Below the pieces are notes generated by a model. It was not told where the DNA came from. It ran no database searches and saw only the letters and a program-made list of their open reading frames with translations. Source: Anaeromassilibacillus sp. An250 (lineage in GTDB: Bacteria; Bacillota; Clostridia; Oscillospirales; Acutalibacteraceae). Taken from it: a stretch of DNA of 64,000 nt. Shown one piece after another: positions 35,161 to 43,662 of this stretch. Numbering within the stretch: position 1 is the first letter of the stretch; every line of letters begins with the position of its first letter. The position numbers were made by a program, and so were the translations under genes. Location: positions 62,001 through 126,000 of the forward strand of contig NZ_NFJK01000007.1 in the NCBI RefSeq assembly GCF_002159845.1, given 5' to 3'.

Positions 35161-35211
35161 ATATAAAAAAGACAAGCTGGGAAATCTTTTCCCAGCTTGT
35201 CTTTTTTATAT
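35161..35211. terminator. Long bidirectional terminator between convergent genes
   Basis: Bases 35161-35183 are perfectly complementary to 35189-35211, with A-rich and T-rich ends on each side (AAAAAAGACAAGC / GCTTGTCTTTTTT). It serves the plus-strand methyltransferase and the minus-strand pseudokinase gene. Confidence 0.95.
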
Positions 35212-35224
35212 AACCCATTGCCAA

Positions 35225-36964
35225 TTATTCCACCAAGGGAATAGACGATTGCTCTTCTGTAGACGGTTCCGCAGGTTCGGAAAGCAACGCATCCGGATTT
35301 TCCGGACCCTTGCTGATGACGATGACCACCTGAGACCCATAGGGAAGTTCGCTCCCTTCCTCCAAGCCTTGGTAGCCGATCGCATAACCGGATGGAATCG
35401 TATCGCTGAATGCTTCGGCCTTTGTAGGGACAAAGCCTGCCGCGGTAACCGTTGTGGAAGCATCCGCGAGTGTTTTCCCAGCGATGGGCGGCAAGGTGCG
35501 GATCTCCGGACCCTTGCTTACCACCACAACGATGGAGCCGCCGCGTTCCATTTCTTCCCCAGGGGCAGGCGATTGCGAGATGACTTCGCCCTCCGGAACC
35601 GCATCGTTGAATTCTTCGGAGGAGCGGAGCACTTGATAGTCTGCCCCGGAGGAAGTGACCTCAATTAAAGAATCGTAGTTCTGCCCGATTAGGTTCGGAG
35701 CTTCGATCTTATCGTTTGGAATGGCCGACTCGCCAGGGGTTAACTGTAGCATAGCCGCTTCTTCGCCGCCGGATGCGTCGGAAGAGGATAAACTGGTTTC
35801 GGCTCCAGACTCCAGCCCTTCAGAGGTCTGTGTTTGGATAAAAGGCCCTCCATAAGAAAGCCAAATAACGCCGACGGCTGTAAACAAGACCAGCGCCACC
35901 AAGCAAGGAATTAACATCCAGGCCGCCGTGTGTTCTTTCTTTTGGGGAGGTTCCCGATTTTCAAGCCCTTCCGAAAGTTCCGGCCCCTCGATTGTAGCTG
36001 TAATCGTTGGTGCAGCGGAAAGCTCGGCACGCAACCGCTCAAATGTAGTTGTGCGTTTGTCCGGCATAACCTGCAGTGCATTCGCCAATGCTGTCACCAC
36101 ATGGGGCGGAATGGTGCGCAAAATATTGGTCGGAATCAAAAGCCGCGGGTCTTCCCGCCGCTTGAGGGCGTCCTGTGGCAATTCCCCGGTCAATGCAAAA
36201 AACAGGGAAGCTGCAAACCCATATACGTCCGTTGATTCATCGGGCACATACCCCATCACATACTGCTCAATGGCGGCACACCCCGGCGTCAGATCGGCCG
36301 GAAGATCGGCATCCGCACGGCGGACCGGCGCAATGCAAAAGCTTCCCAGGACCATCCTTCCATCCTTCATGATGCGCAGCGTATCGGGGGAAATCCCCAA
36401 ATGGCTGATTTTTGCCGTATGCATGGTGCTCAGAGCGGAAAGGACCGGCATAAAAAGCTGCCGGGCGGCGTTCCAGTTGAGGTTGCCGCCGCTGCGTTCG
36501 ACATAATAGCGCAGCGGAATGCTGTCGTGCCATTCGGATACGGTGTAAGCAGTGTGATTCTCCTCGAAGATATCGTAAATCTGGACAATTGTGGAGAGTT
36601 CCCGCAAATGGGCAATATCACGTGCATAGCTGAGAAAATCCGCAAGGTATTCGTTGAATGCCACTTCGTTGCCCGGCAGAATACGAATATCGGCCTCGCC
36701 GTCCGTACGTTCGCATAGGCTCTGCGGGAAGAATTCCCGCACCTCTACAGGCAGGCGGAGCACCGTATCGTATCCAATATAGGTCATGCCTTCGCCGTTG
36801 TTGGATTTCATACGTCCAACAATGTACCGGTTCTGTAACATAACCCGCAGAGGCAAGGCATGCGGCGCCTGTGGCTCGCCGGACTGGCAGCCGCAATTGG
36901 GACATTCACTTTTTCCGGCTGTATCCGACATACAGTTCATGCACAGGTTTTCATAACCAGCCAT
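35225..36964 (-). CDS. Membrane pseudokinase with zinc finger and two PASTA domains
   Basis: 579 residues: an N-terminal zinc-knuckle segment (CMNC, CPNCGC; residues 8-26), a Ser/Thr-kinase-like fold (about 46-315), one membrane helix (about 348-370), a low-complexity linker and two extracellular PASTA repeats (about 418-486 and 487-555). The kinase fold aligns with clostridial kinases that read VAIKEFFP and HRDISPDN, but here these are VEVREFFP, SHLGISPDT and, at the DFG site, GSF (207-209). The beta-3 lysine, the catalytic aspartate and the metal-binding aspartate are all lost, so activity is very unlikely. PASTA domains bind muropeptides in related kinases; a sensing or scaffold role is inference. 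Ribosome site GGAGG. Confidence 0.85.
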   Translation of the reverse strand: MAGYENLCMNCMSDTAGKSECPNCGCQSGEPQAPHALPLRVMLQNRYIVGRMKSNNGEGMTYIGYDTVLRLPVEVREFFPQSLCERTDGEADIRILPGNEVAFNEYLADFLSYARDIAHLRELSTIVQIYDIFEENHTAYTVSEWHDSIPLRYYVERSGGNLNWNAARQLFMPVLSALSTMHTAKISHLGISPDTLRIMKDGRMVLGSFCIAPVRRADADLPADLTPGCAAIEQYVMGYVPDESTDVYGFAASLFFALTGELPQDALKRREDPRLLIPTNILRTIPPHVVTALANALQVMPDKRTTTFERLRAELSAAPTITATIEGPELSEGLENREPPQKKEHTAAWMLIPCLVALVLFTAVGVIWLSYGGPFIQTQTSEGLESGAETSLSSSDASGGEEAAMLQLTPGESAIPNDKIEAPNLIGQNYDSLIEVTSSGADYQVLRSSEEFNDAVPEGEVISQSPAPGEEMERGGSIVVVVSKGPEIRTLPPIAGKTLADASTTVTAAGFVPTKAEAFSDTIPSGYAIGYQGLEEGSELPYGSQVVIVISKGPENPDALLSEPAEPSTEEQSSIPLVE

Positions 36965-37049
36965 GTCGTTTCCTCCACTTCTGTGGAACCGCATGGTGGG
37001 GCGGCTGCTCTTTGCCGCCCGGTCCTTCATCCCCTTTGGTTGTTTGATG

Positions 37050-37140: not shown

Positions 37141-37887
37141 TTATTCCTCGTCGTCTTCGTCTGCGTTCTCCCAGTTGTGCCATACGTTCTGCACGTCGTC
37201 GTTGTCTTCCAAAGCGTCCAACAGGCGGCGCATCTTAGTGATGGCGTCCTCATCGGTCAGGGTGGTGTAGGTACTCGGCACCATTTCCACTTCCGCAGAG
37301 ACGAATTCGTATCCCTTTTGCGTCAGGTCGTCCAGCACGCCGCTGAAATCATCCGGCTCTGTATAGATCTCGAAGACATCCTCGTCCGCCTGGAAATCGG
37401 AAGCGCCCGCTTCGAGGCAGTCCTCCATGACCTTGTCCTCTTCCAATCCCTCGCGCTCGATGACGAGTACACCCTTCTGCGAGAACATGAAGGAAACGCA
37501 TCCGGAGGTGCCGAGGTTTCCGCCGAATTTATCAAAGTAGTGGCGCACATCGCCGGCCGTGCGGTTGCGGTTGTCCGTCAAGGTCTCGACAATTACCGCG
37601 ATGCCGCTAGGACCATACCCCTCGTATGTAATGTTTTCATACTTGGCGTCGTCCCCTTCGCCCGCTGCCTTTTTAATGATGCGTTCAATATTTTCATTCG
37701 GCACATTAGCCGCCTTTGCTTTGGCAATACAATCCTTCAATTTGGAGTTGGAAGCCGGGTCCGGGCCGCCGCCCTCTTTTACCGCCACCGCCAATTCGCG
37801 TCCGATCTTTGTAAAGATCTTGGCTTTTGCGCCGTCTGTTTTTTCCTTCTTCCGCTTAATATTATTCCACTTCGAATGGCCTGACAT
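37141..37887 (-). CDS. yebC: YebC/PmpR-family protein
   Basis: 248 residues. It begins MSGHSKWNNIKRKKEKTDGA and carries KIFTKIGRELAVAVKEGGGPDP and YEGYGPSGIAVIVETLTDNRNRTA, the family hallmarks, with an acidic C-terminus. YebC proteins are annotated as DNA-binding regulators; some members (YebC2) relieve ribosome stalling at proline tracts, so a translation role is possible. AGGAGG precedes the ATG. It has its own promoter. Confidence 0.94.
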   Translation of the reverse strand: MSGHSKWNNIKRKKEKTDGAKAKIFTKIGRELAVAVKEGGGPDPASNSKLKDCIAKAKAANVPNENIERIIKKAAGEGDDAKYENITYEGYGPSGIAVIVETLTDNRNRTAGDVRHYFDKFGGNLGTSGCVSFMFSQKGVLVIEREGLEEDKVMEDCLEAGASDFQADEDVFEIYTEPDDFSGVLDDLTQKGYEFVSAEVEMVPSTYTTLTDEDAITKMRRLLDALEDNDDVQNVWHNWENADEDDEE

Positions 37888-39454: not shown

Positions 39455-42349
39455 ATGAAAGTCGGTTTAGACGTCGGCTCCACGACCATCAAATGCGTGG
39501 TTCTCGACGACCAGAACAACATTGTTTATAAGTCCTATGAACGCCATCTTTCACAGATTACGGAGAAGATGAGCGAGTTGCTCACCAAAGTGCGCGATGA
39601 GGTCATCCACGGCACGGACGCACAGATTACGGTTTCCGGTTCCGCTGGGATGGGCGTGGCGGAAACCTGTAACCTGCCCTTTATGCAGGAAGTCTACGCG
39701 ACGCGCATCGCCATCGGCAAATTGATCCCGGATGCGGACGTTATTATTGAGCTGGGCGGCGAGGACGCCAAGATCCTGTTTTTGTCCGGCGGCATGGAAG
39801 TCCGCATGAACGGCACATGCGCCGGTGGAACGGGGGCGTTCATCGATCAGATGGCGACCCTGCTGAACGTATCGCTCGATGAGATGAACGAGCTGGCGGC
39901 GGAGTATGAAAAAATTTATACCATCGCATCCCGGTGCGGCGTTTTCGCCAAATCGGACATCCAGCCGCTTTTGAACCAGGGCGCGCGGAAGAGCGATATA
40001 TCCGCCAGCATCTTTGCCGCTGTTGCCAACCAGACCATCGCCGGGCTTGCACAGGGACGGCAGATCAAGGGAAACGTGGTTTACCTTGGCGGACCGCTTA
40101 CGTTTCTTTCGGGGTTGCGCGATGCGTTTGACACGGCGTTAAAGGTGAAGGGGCTTTGCCCGGAGAATTCCCTTTATTATGTGGCGCTCGGCGCTGCATT
40201 CAGCAGTGCGACTTCCATTGACCTAGAAACAGCTTTAAAGAATATTGCTAATTACGGAACAAAAGCGGCGTTCCTCTCCATTGAGCCGCTGTTCAACAAC
40301 GAAGAGGAATATGAGGCTTTCCGTAAGCGTCACGAGGCGTGCAAAGCGCCGCGGGGCGATATCGCCTCCTATCAGGGGGAGGCCTATCTGGGCGTCGATG
40401 CGGGTTCCACCACCGTCAAAACCGTGTTGCTCGGCAAGGACGGGGAGATCCTCGATTCGATGTATCAGAGCAACTCCGGCAACCCGGTCCCGATCATCCG
40501 GGAATATTTGTTGGGGCTGTATCACGATCATCCCAATATTCAGATCCGCTCCTCCGCCGTCACCGGATACGGGGAAGAGCTCTTGAAAAACGCATTTGGA
40601 ATTGACTGGGGCATTGTGGAAACCGTCGCGCATTTTACGGCGGCCAAGCATTTCCTGCCGGATGTGGATTTTGTCATCGATATCGGCGGCCAGGATATGA
40701 AATGCTTCAAGATCCGCAAGGGCGCCATCGATAATATCTTTTTGAACGAGGCTTGTTCTTCTGGATGCGGGTCCTTTTTACAGACCTTTGCTAACACATT
40801 GGGATATAGCATCCAGGACTTTGCAAAGCTTGGGTTGTTTGCCAAGCATCCAGTCGATTTGGGTTCCCGCTGCACCGTATTTATGAACTCTTCGGTCAAA
40901 CAGGCGCAGAAGGACGGCGCGACAACCGAGGATATTTCCGCCGGCCTGTCGGTCAGCGTTGTAAAAAATGCCATTTATAAGGTCATCCGTGCTTCTTCCG
41001 CGGAGGAACTGGGGAAAAATATTGTTGTCCAGGGTGGCACGTTCCTGAACGACGCGGTCCTGCGCGTCTTTGAAAAGGAACTCGGCGTAAACGTCGTGCG
41101 CCCGGATATCTCCGGGCTGATGGGCGCCTATGGTGCGGCGCTCTATGCGATGAATAAGGCTGGCAAGGCCAGCACGTTGTTGTCTTTGGAAGAGCTGGAG
41201 AACTTTACGCACGAAGTCCGCGTGACCTCCTGCGGCTTGTGCAACAACCATTGCCGCCTGACCATCAACGTCTTTGGCGGAAACCGCCGGTTCATCGGCG
41301 GAAACCGCTGTGAAAAACCCGTAACAAAGCGTTCCAATCAGAGCGAACAGAACATGTATGCCTTTAAACTTGAAACGCTCCGTTCATATCTTCCGGTGGA
41401 GGGGCCGCGCGGCAAGCTGGGCTTTCCCATGGGATTGAATATGTACGAACTGCTGCCGTTCTGGTATACGTTCTTTACCAAGCTTGGGTTTGAGGTGGTT
41501 ACGTCCCCGCTCTCCTCGCGTGAATTGTATATCAAGGGACAGAGCACCATTCCAAGCGACACGGTCTGCTTCCCTGCAAAGCTCATGCATGGGCATGTGG
41601 ATGCGCTGATTGAGCAAGGCATCCAGAATATCTTCTATCCGTGTATGTCCTATAACTTTGACGAGAAGTTGGGGGACAATCACTACAACTGCCCGGTGGT
41701 GGCCTATTACCCGGAGGTCATTTCTGCGAATATGGCCAACCTCAGAGGATTGACGTTTATCCACGATTATGTCGGCATTCACCGCAAGCGCGACTTTCCC
41801 AAGAAAATGCACGCCATTTTAGCGCAGTATTTTGACGGCATTTCCCTGCCGGAGGTGAAGCAGGCCGCGAAAGACGCTTACGCCGAATACGACGCCTATA
41901 TGCAGAAGATCCGCGAGAAGGGCGACGAGATGATCGCGCAGGCCCGTGCGGAGGGGAAGCCGATTATCATTTTGAGTGGCCGCCCGTACCACCTCGATCC
42001 GGAAATCAACCACGGAATCGACAAGCTGATTACCAGCTTGGGCGCGGCTGTTATTTCGGAGGATGTCATCAGCGCCAAAGAAACGAAATTTTCAGTCGGC
42101 GTCTTGAACCAGTGGACGTATCATGCGCGCCTGTATGCAGCCGCTGAATATGTGGGCAGCCAGAAGGATATGAATCTGGTGCAGCTCGTCTCCTTTGGCT
42201 GCGGTGTGGACGCCATTACGACGGACGAGGTGCGCAGCATTTTGGAATCCCATAACAAAATCTATACACAGATCAAAATAGACGAAATTACGAACCTTGG
42301 CGCAGTCAAGATCCGCCTGCGCAGCCTGTTCGCCGCTCTGGAGGGCTGA
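39455..42349 (+). CDS. 2-hydroxyacyl-CoA dehydratase activase-like protein, two ASKHA domains plus DUF2229
   Basis: 964 residues. Two BadF/HgdC-type ASKHA ATPase domains in tandem: GLDVGSTTIK (4-13) with GGEDAKILF and CAGGTGAFIDQMA, and LGVDAGSTTVKTVLLG (about 310) with DIGGQDMKCFKIRKG and CSSGCGSFLQTFA; the cysteines are those that bind the [4Fe-4S] cluster of activases. Then comes a DUF2229-type region (SCGLCNNHCRLTIN, GFPMGLNMYELLPFW). In many Clostridia this is one protein of about 1,400 residues with a further C-terminal dehydratase-like part; here that part is the next gene. The substrate is not known, and the classical HgdAB partners are not in the window. Confidence 0.85.
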   Translation: MKVGLDVGSTTIKCVVLDDQNNIVYKSYERHLSQITEKMSELLTKVRDEVIHGTDAQITVSGSAGMGVAETCNLPFMQEVYATRIAIGKLIPDADVIIELGGEDAKILFLSGGMEVRMNGTCAGGTGAFIDQMATLLNVSLDEMNELAAEYEKIYTIASRCGVFAKSDIQPLLNQGARKSDISASIFAAVANQTIAGLAQGRQIKGNVVYLGGPLTFLSGLRDAFDTALKVKGLCPENSLYYVALGAAFSSATSIDLETALKNIANYGTKAAFLSIEPLFNNEEEYEAFRKRHEACKAPRGDIASYQGEAYLGVDAGSTTVKTVLLGKDGEILDSMYQSNSGNPVPIIREYLLGLYHDHPNIQIRSSAVTGYGEELLKNAFGIDWGIVETVAHFTAAKHFLPDVDFVIDIGGQDMKCFKIRKGAIDNIFLNEACSSGCGSFLQTFANTLGYSIQDFAKLGLFAKHPVDLGSRCTVFMNSSVKQAQKDGATTEDISAGLSVSVVKNAIYKVIRASSAEELGKNIVVQGGTFLNDAVLRVFEKELGVNVVRPDISGLMGAYGAALYAMNKAGKASTLLSLEELENFTHEVRVTSCGLCNNHCRLTINVFGGNRRFIGGNRCEKPVTKRSNQSEQNMYAFKLETLRSYLPVEGPRGKLGFPMGLNMYELLPFWYTFFTKLGFEVVTSPLSSRELYIKGQSTIPSDTVCFPAKLMHGHVDALIEQGIQNIFYPCMSYNFDEKLGDNHYNCPVVAYYPEVISANMANLRGLTFIHDYVGIHRKRDFPKKMHAILAQYFDGISLPEVKQAAKDAYAEYDAYMQKIREKGDEMIAQARAEGKPIIILSGRPYHLDPEINHGIDKLITSLGAAVISEDVISAKETKFSVGVLNQWTYHARLYAAAEYVGSQKDMNLVQLVSFGCGVDAITTDEVRSILESHNKIYTQIKIDEITNLGAVKIRLRSLFAALEG

Positions 42350-42372
42350 GCCCCATCCGAAAGGAGAATACT

Positions 42373-43662
42373 ATGGCAGAATTGAAATTCGATAAAACGG
42401 GCCGTCTCCTGTTTACCAAGGAGATGAAAAAGGAATACACCATCTTATGCCCGATGATGTTGCCCATCCATTTTGAGCTGTTTGTGGACGTGTTCCGCAG
42501 CTATGGCTATAAAGCGGAGCTGTTGACTACAAGCGGGCCAAACATCGTGCAGGAAGGGCTCAAATATGTGCACAACGATACGTGCTATCCCGCCCTGCTG
42601 GTGATCGGCCAGTTCATTGATGCCCTCAAAAGCGGCAAATATGACCTGGACCGCACAGCGTTGATTATCACACAGACGGGCGGCGGTTGCCGTGCGAGCA
42701 ATTATATCCACTTGTTGCGCAAGGCACTGCATAAGGCGGGATTCGACCAGATTCCCGTCATCTCGCTGAATCTTTCCGGCCTGGAGCACAACCCCGGTTT
42801 TTCGATCACCTTACCGATGATCCGCAAGATGGTAGCGGCTGTCATCTACGGCGACGCACTGATGCTGCTGAATAACCAAGTAAAGCCCTATGAGGTTGAA
42901 CCCGGCGCCAGCAAGCGCATGGTCCAGAAGTGGACGGCCGAACTGTGCAAGCAGTTCCGTCACAGCGAGGGCATGGGCCTGAAAAAAGAAGAGGCGAACC
43001 TCCAACGCATCGTGAAGGATTTTGCCTCGATCCCGATCAAGAAGACGCCAAAGATCAAAGTGGGCATTGTGGGCGAAATTTATGTCAAATACGCGGCGTT
43101 CGCTAACAACCATTTGGAGGATTTCCTGGCGGAGCAGGGCTGCGAGGTCAACGTGCCTGGTTTGATGTCGTTTGTTCAGTTTAAAATTGACAATCGCCTT
43201 GAGGACATCAAGCTCTATGGGGGCAGCAAAGCGAAGTATGCGGTGGTGAATGTCCTGATGGAATATGCTACCAAAATGCAGGATGCTTTAATCCGGGCGG
43301 TTAAAACAGAGCCGAAGTTCTATGCGCCGGCATCTTATGAGCATATTAAGAGCCTTGTCAAAGGCGTCATTGGATATGGCGACAAGATGGGGGAGGGCTG
43401 GCTTCTCACGGCCGAGATGCTGGAGCTCACCGAAGCGGGATATGAAAACATTGTCTGCGCGCAGCCGTTTGGCTGCCTGCCGAATCATATCTGCGGCAAA
43501 GGGATGATCCATCGCCTCCGCGAAGTTGCCCCGAATTCGAATATTGTCCCGATCGACTACGACCCGAGCGCTACCCGCGTCAACCAAGAAAACCGCATTA
43601 AGTTGATGCTGGCGGTTGCCCGGGAAAAAATGGCCGCTGCCGGGGAAGGAAAATCCGAGTGA
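42373..43662 (+). CDS. 2-hydroxyacyl-CoA dehydratase D-component-like protein
   Basis: 429 residues that match the C-terminal part of the large fused activase-related proteins: YTILCPMMLPIHFELFVDVF, VHNDTCYPALLVIGQFIDAL, TQTGGGCRASNYIHLLRKAL, VGIVGEIYVKYAAFANNHLE and QPFGCLPNHICGKGM. Conserved cysteines (DTCYPA, GGCRAS, GCLPNHICG) may hold an Fe-S cluster. It begins 23 bases after the activase with AAAGGAGA ahead, so it is a genuine separate gene and not a frameshift product. 964 + 429 is close to the size of the fused form. Confidence 0.83.
   Translation: MAELKFDKTGRLLFTKEMKKEYTILCPMMLPIHFELFVDVFRSYGYKAELLTTSGPNIVQEGLKYVHNDTCYPALLVIGQFIDALKSGKYDLDRTALIITQTGGGCRASNYIHLLRKALHKAGFDQIPVISLNLSGLEHNPGFSITLPMIRKMVAAVIYGDALMLLNNQVKPYEVEPGASKRMVQKWTAELCKQFRHSEGMGLKKEEANLQRIVKDFASIPIKKTPKIKVGIVGEIYVKYAAFANNHLEDFLAEQGCEVNVPGLMSFVQFKIDNRLEDIKLYGGSKAKYAVVNVLMEYATKMQDALIRAVKTEPKFYAPASYEHIKSLVKGVIGYGDKMGEGWLLTAEMLELTEAGYENIVCAQPFGCLPNHICGKGMIHRLREVAPNSNIVPIDYDPSATRVNQENRIKLMLAVAREKMAAAGEGKSE

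Follow-up and report, generated by a model that had tools for sequence, protein, structure and literature searches.

A conserved PASTA-domain receptor with a predicted kinase-dead domain is nearly universal in a family of Clostridia

The stretch of DNA analyzed here, referred to below as the window, comprises 64,000 nucleotides of the genome of Anaeromassilibacillus sp. An250 (contig NZ_NFJK01000007.1, positions 62,001 to 126,000). Its minus strand carries a gene whose product contains a zinc ribbon, a kinase-like domain, a disordered linker, a membrane helix and two PASTA repeats, in that order. The features of the locus are listed below; the replaced catalytic residues were assigned by alignment to intact relatives.

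37141..37887, minus strand: gene that we take to be yebC-like, upstream of the pseudokinase gene and on the same strand
36972-36976, minus strand: ribosome-binding site GGAGG, 7 nt upstream of the ATG
36962..36964, minus strand: start codon ATG, the Met being kept at the same position among relatives
35225..36964, minus strand: PASTA pseudokinase gene, 579 aa, stop codon within the coordinates
36890..36943, minus strand: zinc ribbon CxxC...CxxC, residues 8-25 (C8, C11, C21 and C24)
36020..36826, minus strand: pseudokinase domain, residues 47-315, pLDDT mostly >90
36737..36739, minus strand: Arg76 for the VAIK Lys
36626..36628, minus strand: Tyr113 for the C-helix Glu
36395..36403, minus strand: HLG (188-190) for HRD
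36335..36343, minus strand: SFC (208-210) for DFG
35855..35926, minus strand: membrane helix, residues 347-370, a helix in the AlphaFold2 model and hydrophobic by inspection
35513..35704, minus strand: PASTA repeat 1 (49.4 bits, above the Pfam cut-off)
35309..35497, minus strand: PASTA repeat 2 (41.2 bits, above the Pfam cut-off)
35163..35209, minus strand: terminator-like hairpin of 20 pairs, just downstream of the gene

The longest reading frame opens at an earlier ATG (37030), and the start at 36964 is supported by the GGAGG box and the conserved Met. A consensus scan found no promoter for the gene.

An earlier note on this DNA had read the protein as a PASTA-domain membrane protein with a degenerate kinase domain. 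AlphaFold2 modeled the domain alone as a kinase fold (pLDDT 92.5, pTM 0.90), in agreement with that reading. The best structural match of the model was PpkA (5hnv; Z 30.4, rmsd 3.1 over 273 residues, 24% identity), which was also the top sequence match among solved structures (E 3.5e-16), and the Mycobacterium tuberculosis kinases PknB (Z 27.5) and PknA (Z 26.6) both ranked below it. The Pfam Pkinase profile gave 31.0 bits on the protein, just below the cut-off of 31.7, and 32.8 bits, just above it, in the genome-wide search. The placement of two PASTA repeats after a membrane helix was borne out by the Pfam scores and the modeled helix, and the juxtamembrane linker was disordered in the AlphaFold2 model (residues 320-345, pLDDT <50). 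The zinc knuckle described ahead of the kinase domain is present as a cysteine motif, but its type is a CxxC...CxxC zinc ribbon; each of the four cysteines is found in 192 of 194 family sequences, with a gap in the other two, and all are invariant in A1.

Alignment to intact relatives placed Arg76 at the beta-3 Lys and H188-L189-G190 at HRD, as first described. The DFG motif is also lost, although the GSF named in the earlier note lies one residue early and the equivalent is S208-F209-C210. Thus R76, G190 and S208 replace the VAIK Lys, HRD Asp and DFG Asp, and there are losses beyond those first reported, namely Tyr113 at the C-helix Glu and the first two of the three glycine-loop glycines. 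Thr195 occupies the position of the catalytic-loop Asn. From its sequence the protein is a pseudokinase, and it is predicted to be kinase-dead; ATP binding is unlikely and ATP hydrolysis is probably not needed.

The same positions were compared in 223 distinct pseudokinase domains, 194 from the GTDB family of this organism and 29 from a second group that includes L198 of a third family (f23). These residue counts leave out L216, L149 and the PrkC rows, and the groups of the three-group residue listing were assigned by locus number. All four catalytic residues (Lys, C-helix Glu, HRD Asp and DFG Asp) are missing in 172 of the 223. The C-helix Glu is absent from every one (Asp in 3), compared with Glu in 56 and Asp in 1 of 57 intact relatives, all 57 of which have the VAIK Lys, HRD Asp and DFG Asp. 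Residual catalytic residues among the pseudokinases are the Lys in 24 and the DFG Asp in 33, with 6 of these having both. The Lys survives in 15 of 29 second-group sequences versus 9 of 194 family sequences, and because it is more often retained in the second group, it looks as if the HRD Asp and C-helix Glu were lost first and the other residues later. Position 76 of the 194 family sequences is R in 156, H in 25, K in 9, C in 2 and Q in 1, and position 208 is G, D, N, S or E across the pseudokinases. Structural residues have been kept: the APE-like Glu (Glu233) is present in 223 of 223 and Arg304 in 222, with one gap. The equivalents of these two residues pair in canonical kinases. Residues that are highly conserved in the family and rare in intact kinases include Trp164 (97%) and Arg215 (90%).

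The relatives that remain intact, found in this and other orders, are zinc-ribbon kinases of Clostridia with the motifs GGFGITY, VAIKEYxP, HRDISPDN, DFG and GYAPEEQY (or close variants). These "IKEYxP" kinases, several of which occur in tandem, share with the pseudokinase the zinc ribbon, the domain order and the YIGYD, E(F/Y)xP, ISPD and EQY motifs, and their nearest solved structure is likewise PpkA (5hnv/5x1r). They differ in their intact catalytic residues and in what follows the kinase domain. PASTA repeats occur in 9 of 58 of their C-terminal regions and are lacking in 49, in contrast to 112 of 114 for the pseudokinases, a set that includes L216 (outside the clade) and omits L259 (cut by a contig end). 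Several of the other C-terminal regions of intact relatives carry F5/8, Ig-like, LRR, List-Bact repeat or other domains.

Absence of the HRD Asp was the criterion used to sort pseudokinases from intact relatives, and the argument for a distinct clade is therefore carried by a masked tree, the C-helix Glu and the per-genome check. In the masked, unrooted tree, built on an alignment stripped of nine catalytic columns and without the L216, L149 and PrkC sequences, one branch divided 54 pseudokinases from 31 intact kinases (100/99); row L301 sits in the wrong subgroup, which leaves the split unaffected. A quick tree that contained the L216, L149 and PrkC rows gave the same split a support of 16, and gave 87 for the 114 pseudokinases without L216. 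Since a single branch separates the pseudokinases from their intact relatives, the most economical reading is one loss of catalysis, in an ancestor of the clade. The earlier note had set the protein beside the PASTA kinases PrkC and StkP, but the lineage of its kinase domain is that of the zinc-ribbon IKEYxP kinases and not that of PrkC. A decayed PrkC was ruled out, as the domain is nearest to the IKEYxP kinases in sequence and to PpkA in structure, and an intact PrkC is present in the genome.

Two further arrangements were seen among the zinc-ribbon kinases. L205, L207, L208, L209, L211 and L213 contain intact zinc-ribbon kinases (~1,100-1,500 aa), each of which bears between 4 and 8 PASTA repeats and adjoins a shorter kinase, the zinc ribbon being seen in five of the six. 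L216 (10281-12177) encodes a second, separate-looking pseudokinase on a long branch, with HGN for HRD, which ends a cluster of four intact zinc-ribbon kinases.

Orthologues are present in all four genomes of the genus, the other three at 68-84% identity. Within the GTDB family, the pseudokinase profile matched 142 of 150 near-complete genomes (E <= 1e-60). We read 141 of these 142 (all but G229), and every one carries a copy without the HRD Asp, as do all 180 family genomes read in any set. Among the eight family genomes without a profile match (G049, G053, G059, G089, G110, G183, G190 and G195), four are 1.0-1.1 Mb in size, and G053 matches in part. A second family of the same order, f26, had matches in 79 of 79 genomes (E <= 1e-40); the 14 of those 79 that were read gave the same result, and overall a copy without the HRD Asp was found in 28 of 28 f26 genomes. 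One genome of f23 has such a copy. Only G430 has one among 27 genomes read from other families, and it lies outside the pseudokinase clade. Other orders of the class were sampled in 16 stretches, and these contained intact kinases and no pseudokinase. Named relatives include Anaeromassilibacillus, Caproiciproducens and Caproicibacter.

The median dN/dS was 0.056 over the zinc ribbon and pseudokinase domain (34 of 38 close pairs computable; highest 0.122) versus 0.115 over the C-terminal part (32 of 38 computable), indicating that the dead domain is under tighter constraint than the part that follows it. Strong purifying selection acts on a gene that almost every genome of the family carries, and the comparison of orthologues that the earlier note had proposed finds the catalytic changes fixed across the whole clade. 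L095 and L318 encode a zinc ribbon, a pseudokinase domain and a hydrophobic helix-like stretch without PASTA repeats, so the protein's role does not in every case involve PASTA sensing. The genomes of these two loci are small (1.1 and 1.2 Mb).

The earlier note had also proposed searching the genome for an active PASTA kinase and its phosphatase, and both are encoded elsewhere in it. The Pfam Pkinase profile matched only the pseudokinase and PrkC, the latter having intact HRD and DFG motifs and three PASTA repeats, and a PP2C phosphatase gene lies directly upstream of prkC. Of the 150 family genomes, 148 have a PrkC match above the curated cut-off. Such near-universality, which extends to genomes without the pseudokinase, makes co-occurrence weak evidence for a partnership. 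Across 98 loci we found no gene neighborhood that links the pseudokinase to prkC and no conserved operon partner; the commonest neighbor was the yebC-like cluster (20 of 98 loci, 17 times directly upstream). These neighbor counts are lower bounds, as flanks were 3-4 kb and gene calling was crude.

A role specific to spore germination, raised in the earlier note, is not favored. The sporulation gene spoIVA is missing from 12 of 150 family genomes, and 10 of these 12 keep the pseudokinase (the exceptions being G059 and G183), compared with 132 of the 138 genomes in which spoIVA is present (Fisher p 0.13). Thus the pseudokinase is not specific to spore formers; some role in spores is possible.

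The genome has a single FHA match, in which the FHA domain is fused to an FtsW/RodA/SpoVE membrane protein (Pfam 187.5 bits).

G000:C3:109358-109549 (L322:217-1890, minus strand): FHA match of the FtsW/RodA/SpoVE fusion

This fusion is a possible direct phosphothreonine input to a wall synthase.

Several known systems resemble the pseudokinase in part. The PASTA kinases PrkC, StkP and PknB (NF033483) likewise have a kinase fold, one membrane helix and PASTA repeats outside. In contrast to them, the pseudokinase lacks catalytic residues, has an extra zinc ribbon and has a kinase domain nearer to PpkA; it scored 119.7 bits against NF033483, below the NCBIfam equivalog cut-off of 450. CD2148 of Clostridioides difficile is also a membrane-linked degenerate serine/threonine kinase that exists alongside PrkC. 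According to published work, CD2148 is phosphorylated in vitro only when PrkC is present and modulates PrkC-dependent phosphorylation of CwlA, and its authors could not entirely rule out a pseudokinase (PMC9674922, PMC8262956). Compared by description, it differs from the window protein in having no PASTA repeats and in having Ser for its catalytic D and N. In mycobacteria, PknB phosphorylates MviN, to which FhaA then binds (PMC12599244). MviN of M. tuberculosis (ActPs3) is thus a wall-control pseudokinase that acts downstream of a PASTA kinase, but its architecture is unlike that of the window protein and it has VALT, Lsidhpsr and Y-- for VAIK, HRDxxxxN and DFG (PMC12599244, Table 1).

The same review names seven bacterial families that are made of or rich in pseudokinases, and describes the pseudokinase domain of EssB/YukC as used structurally in type VII secretion (PMC12599244). 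Nearest among the seven are the DYD pseudokinases, described there as membrane-associated, partly from Firmicutes, with the VAIK Lys changed to Arg and the C-helix Glu lost. The window protein has both of these changes (R76 and Y113). The DYD proteins, however, keep HRD and/or DFG, a DYD motif and the catalytic-loop Asn (PMC12599244), whereas the window protein has HLG, SFC and Thr195. The word zinc does not occur in the excerpted text of PMC12599244, and PASTA occurs in a reference only; that portion of the review therefore describes no zinc-ribbon PASTA pseudokinase by those words. Among the matches listed in our literature search, covering titles and abstract starts and not the kinase atlas cited by the review, there was no paper on a PASTA pseudokinase family.

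The reading we prefer, with a probability of about 0.5, is that the protein serves the PASTA-kinase pathway as a constitutive partner without catalytic activity, either as a co-receptor that senses peptidoglycan or as an allosteric regulator of PrkC. CD2148 and MviN offer precedents for such a role (PMC9674922, PMC8262956, PMC12599244). Its PASTA repeats would bind peptidoglycan or muropeptides outside the cell. Inside, the pseudokinase domain would bind PrkC, the sole intact Hanks kinase found in the genome, or substrates that the two share, and as co-receptor and allosteric subunit it would tune the activation or substrate choice of PrkC. The zinc ribbon may be a further docking site. In general terms the protein probably regulates or scaffolds signaling rather than phosphorylating, and a partnership with PrkC, as the scaffold, decoy or allosteric partner of the earlier note, is plausible.

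Two alternatives, both improbable, survive about equally well. The first is a phospho-dock like MviN, in which PrkC would phosphorylate Thr or Ser residues of the linker (~319-345) and the pseudokinase would recruit an FHA protein or another wall-synthesis effector; the PASTA repeats and zinc ribbon would place the protein, and the kinase fold would be a mere scaffold. The disorder of the linker fits this idea, as do the MviN precedent (PMC12599244), the fusion of the one FHA match to an FtsW/RodA/SpoVE protein and a PTxTA motif in the linker (PTITA in the window protein, PTVTA or PTITA in near relatives). However, a P[T/S]x[T/S] motif after the domain was present in 59 of 193 family sequences and in none of the 29 from the second group. 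A fixed juxtamembrane phosphosite is therefore not general, and a conserved one was rejected, the motif being confined to part of the clade. More speculative still is a joint scheme in which the PASTA pathway of at least two GTDB families of the order has two receptors, an active PrkC and a near-universal kinase-dead co-receptor whose kinase domain is of another kinase lineage. In the present organism, the circuit might run straight to a peptidoglycan synthase: PrkC would phosphorylate the pseudokinase linker, and this mark would be read by the FHA domain of the FtsW/RodA-type (SEDS) fusion.

The other alternative is a scaffold that is independent of PrkC and anchored to peptidoglycan, whose pseudokinase domain and zinc ribbon would assemble a division or wall complex, cf. 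EssB/YukC (PMC12599244). The absence of a genetic link to prkC in the neighborhoods is consistent with such a scaffold, and the PASTA-less forms retain the inner half and the membrane helix. On the other hand, no candidate complex emerged, the best neighbor cluster being present in 20 of 98 loci, and no secretion-system family was matched in Pfam or NCBIfam.

An enzyme with an altered reaction (e.g. AMPylation, as for SelO), or a slow kinase that handles its nucleotide in an unusual way, is highly unlikely. Arg76 could replace the Lys, and the gained Trp164 and Arg215 could mark a remade pocket, but loss of all four catalytic positions in most of the domains, together with two glycines of the glycine loop, argues against it, and there is no fixed set of replacements (R, H or K at position 76, and the five residues at position 208). 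Sequencing error or strain-specific decay, for which nothing was found, is refuted by the orthologues, the family-wide conservation and the dN/dS of 0.056.

In Gram-positive bacteria, PASTA kinases control how the wall grows, how cells divide and how they tolerate beta-lactams. That large groups of Clostridia have kept a second PASTA receptor, apparently without catalysis, with nearly the same fidelity as the kinase suggests that a component of the sensing apparatus has escaped notice. The pseudokinase receptor is near-universal and conserved, more than a local curiosity, and the case for it is stronger than the earlier note had stated. It also offers a clean natural example of one ancient catalytic loss followed by long conservation, with intact relatives available for comparison, and makes a non-catalytic mode of PASTA signaling directly testable.

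A role in defense was considered and rejected: 23 PADLOC families match the pseudokinase, mostly PD-T4-6 kinases, and we took these as generic kinase matches. Its other NCBIfam matches (MAD6, LanL and StpK7) were far below their cut-offs. Elsewhere in the genome, a third protein with two PASTA repeats was seen in a 754-residue open frame (G000:C9:54716-55072; L006, L007); such PASTA proteins are often penicillin-binding proteins. Within the window, the plus strand has two ORFs at positions 39455-43662 (964 and 429 aa), the first of which presumably resembles a CoA-dehydratase activase (BadF/HgdC-like).
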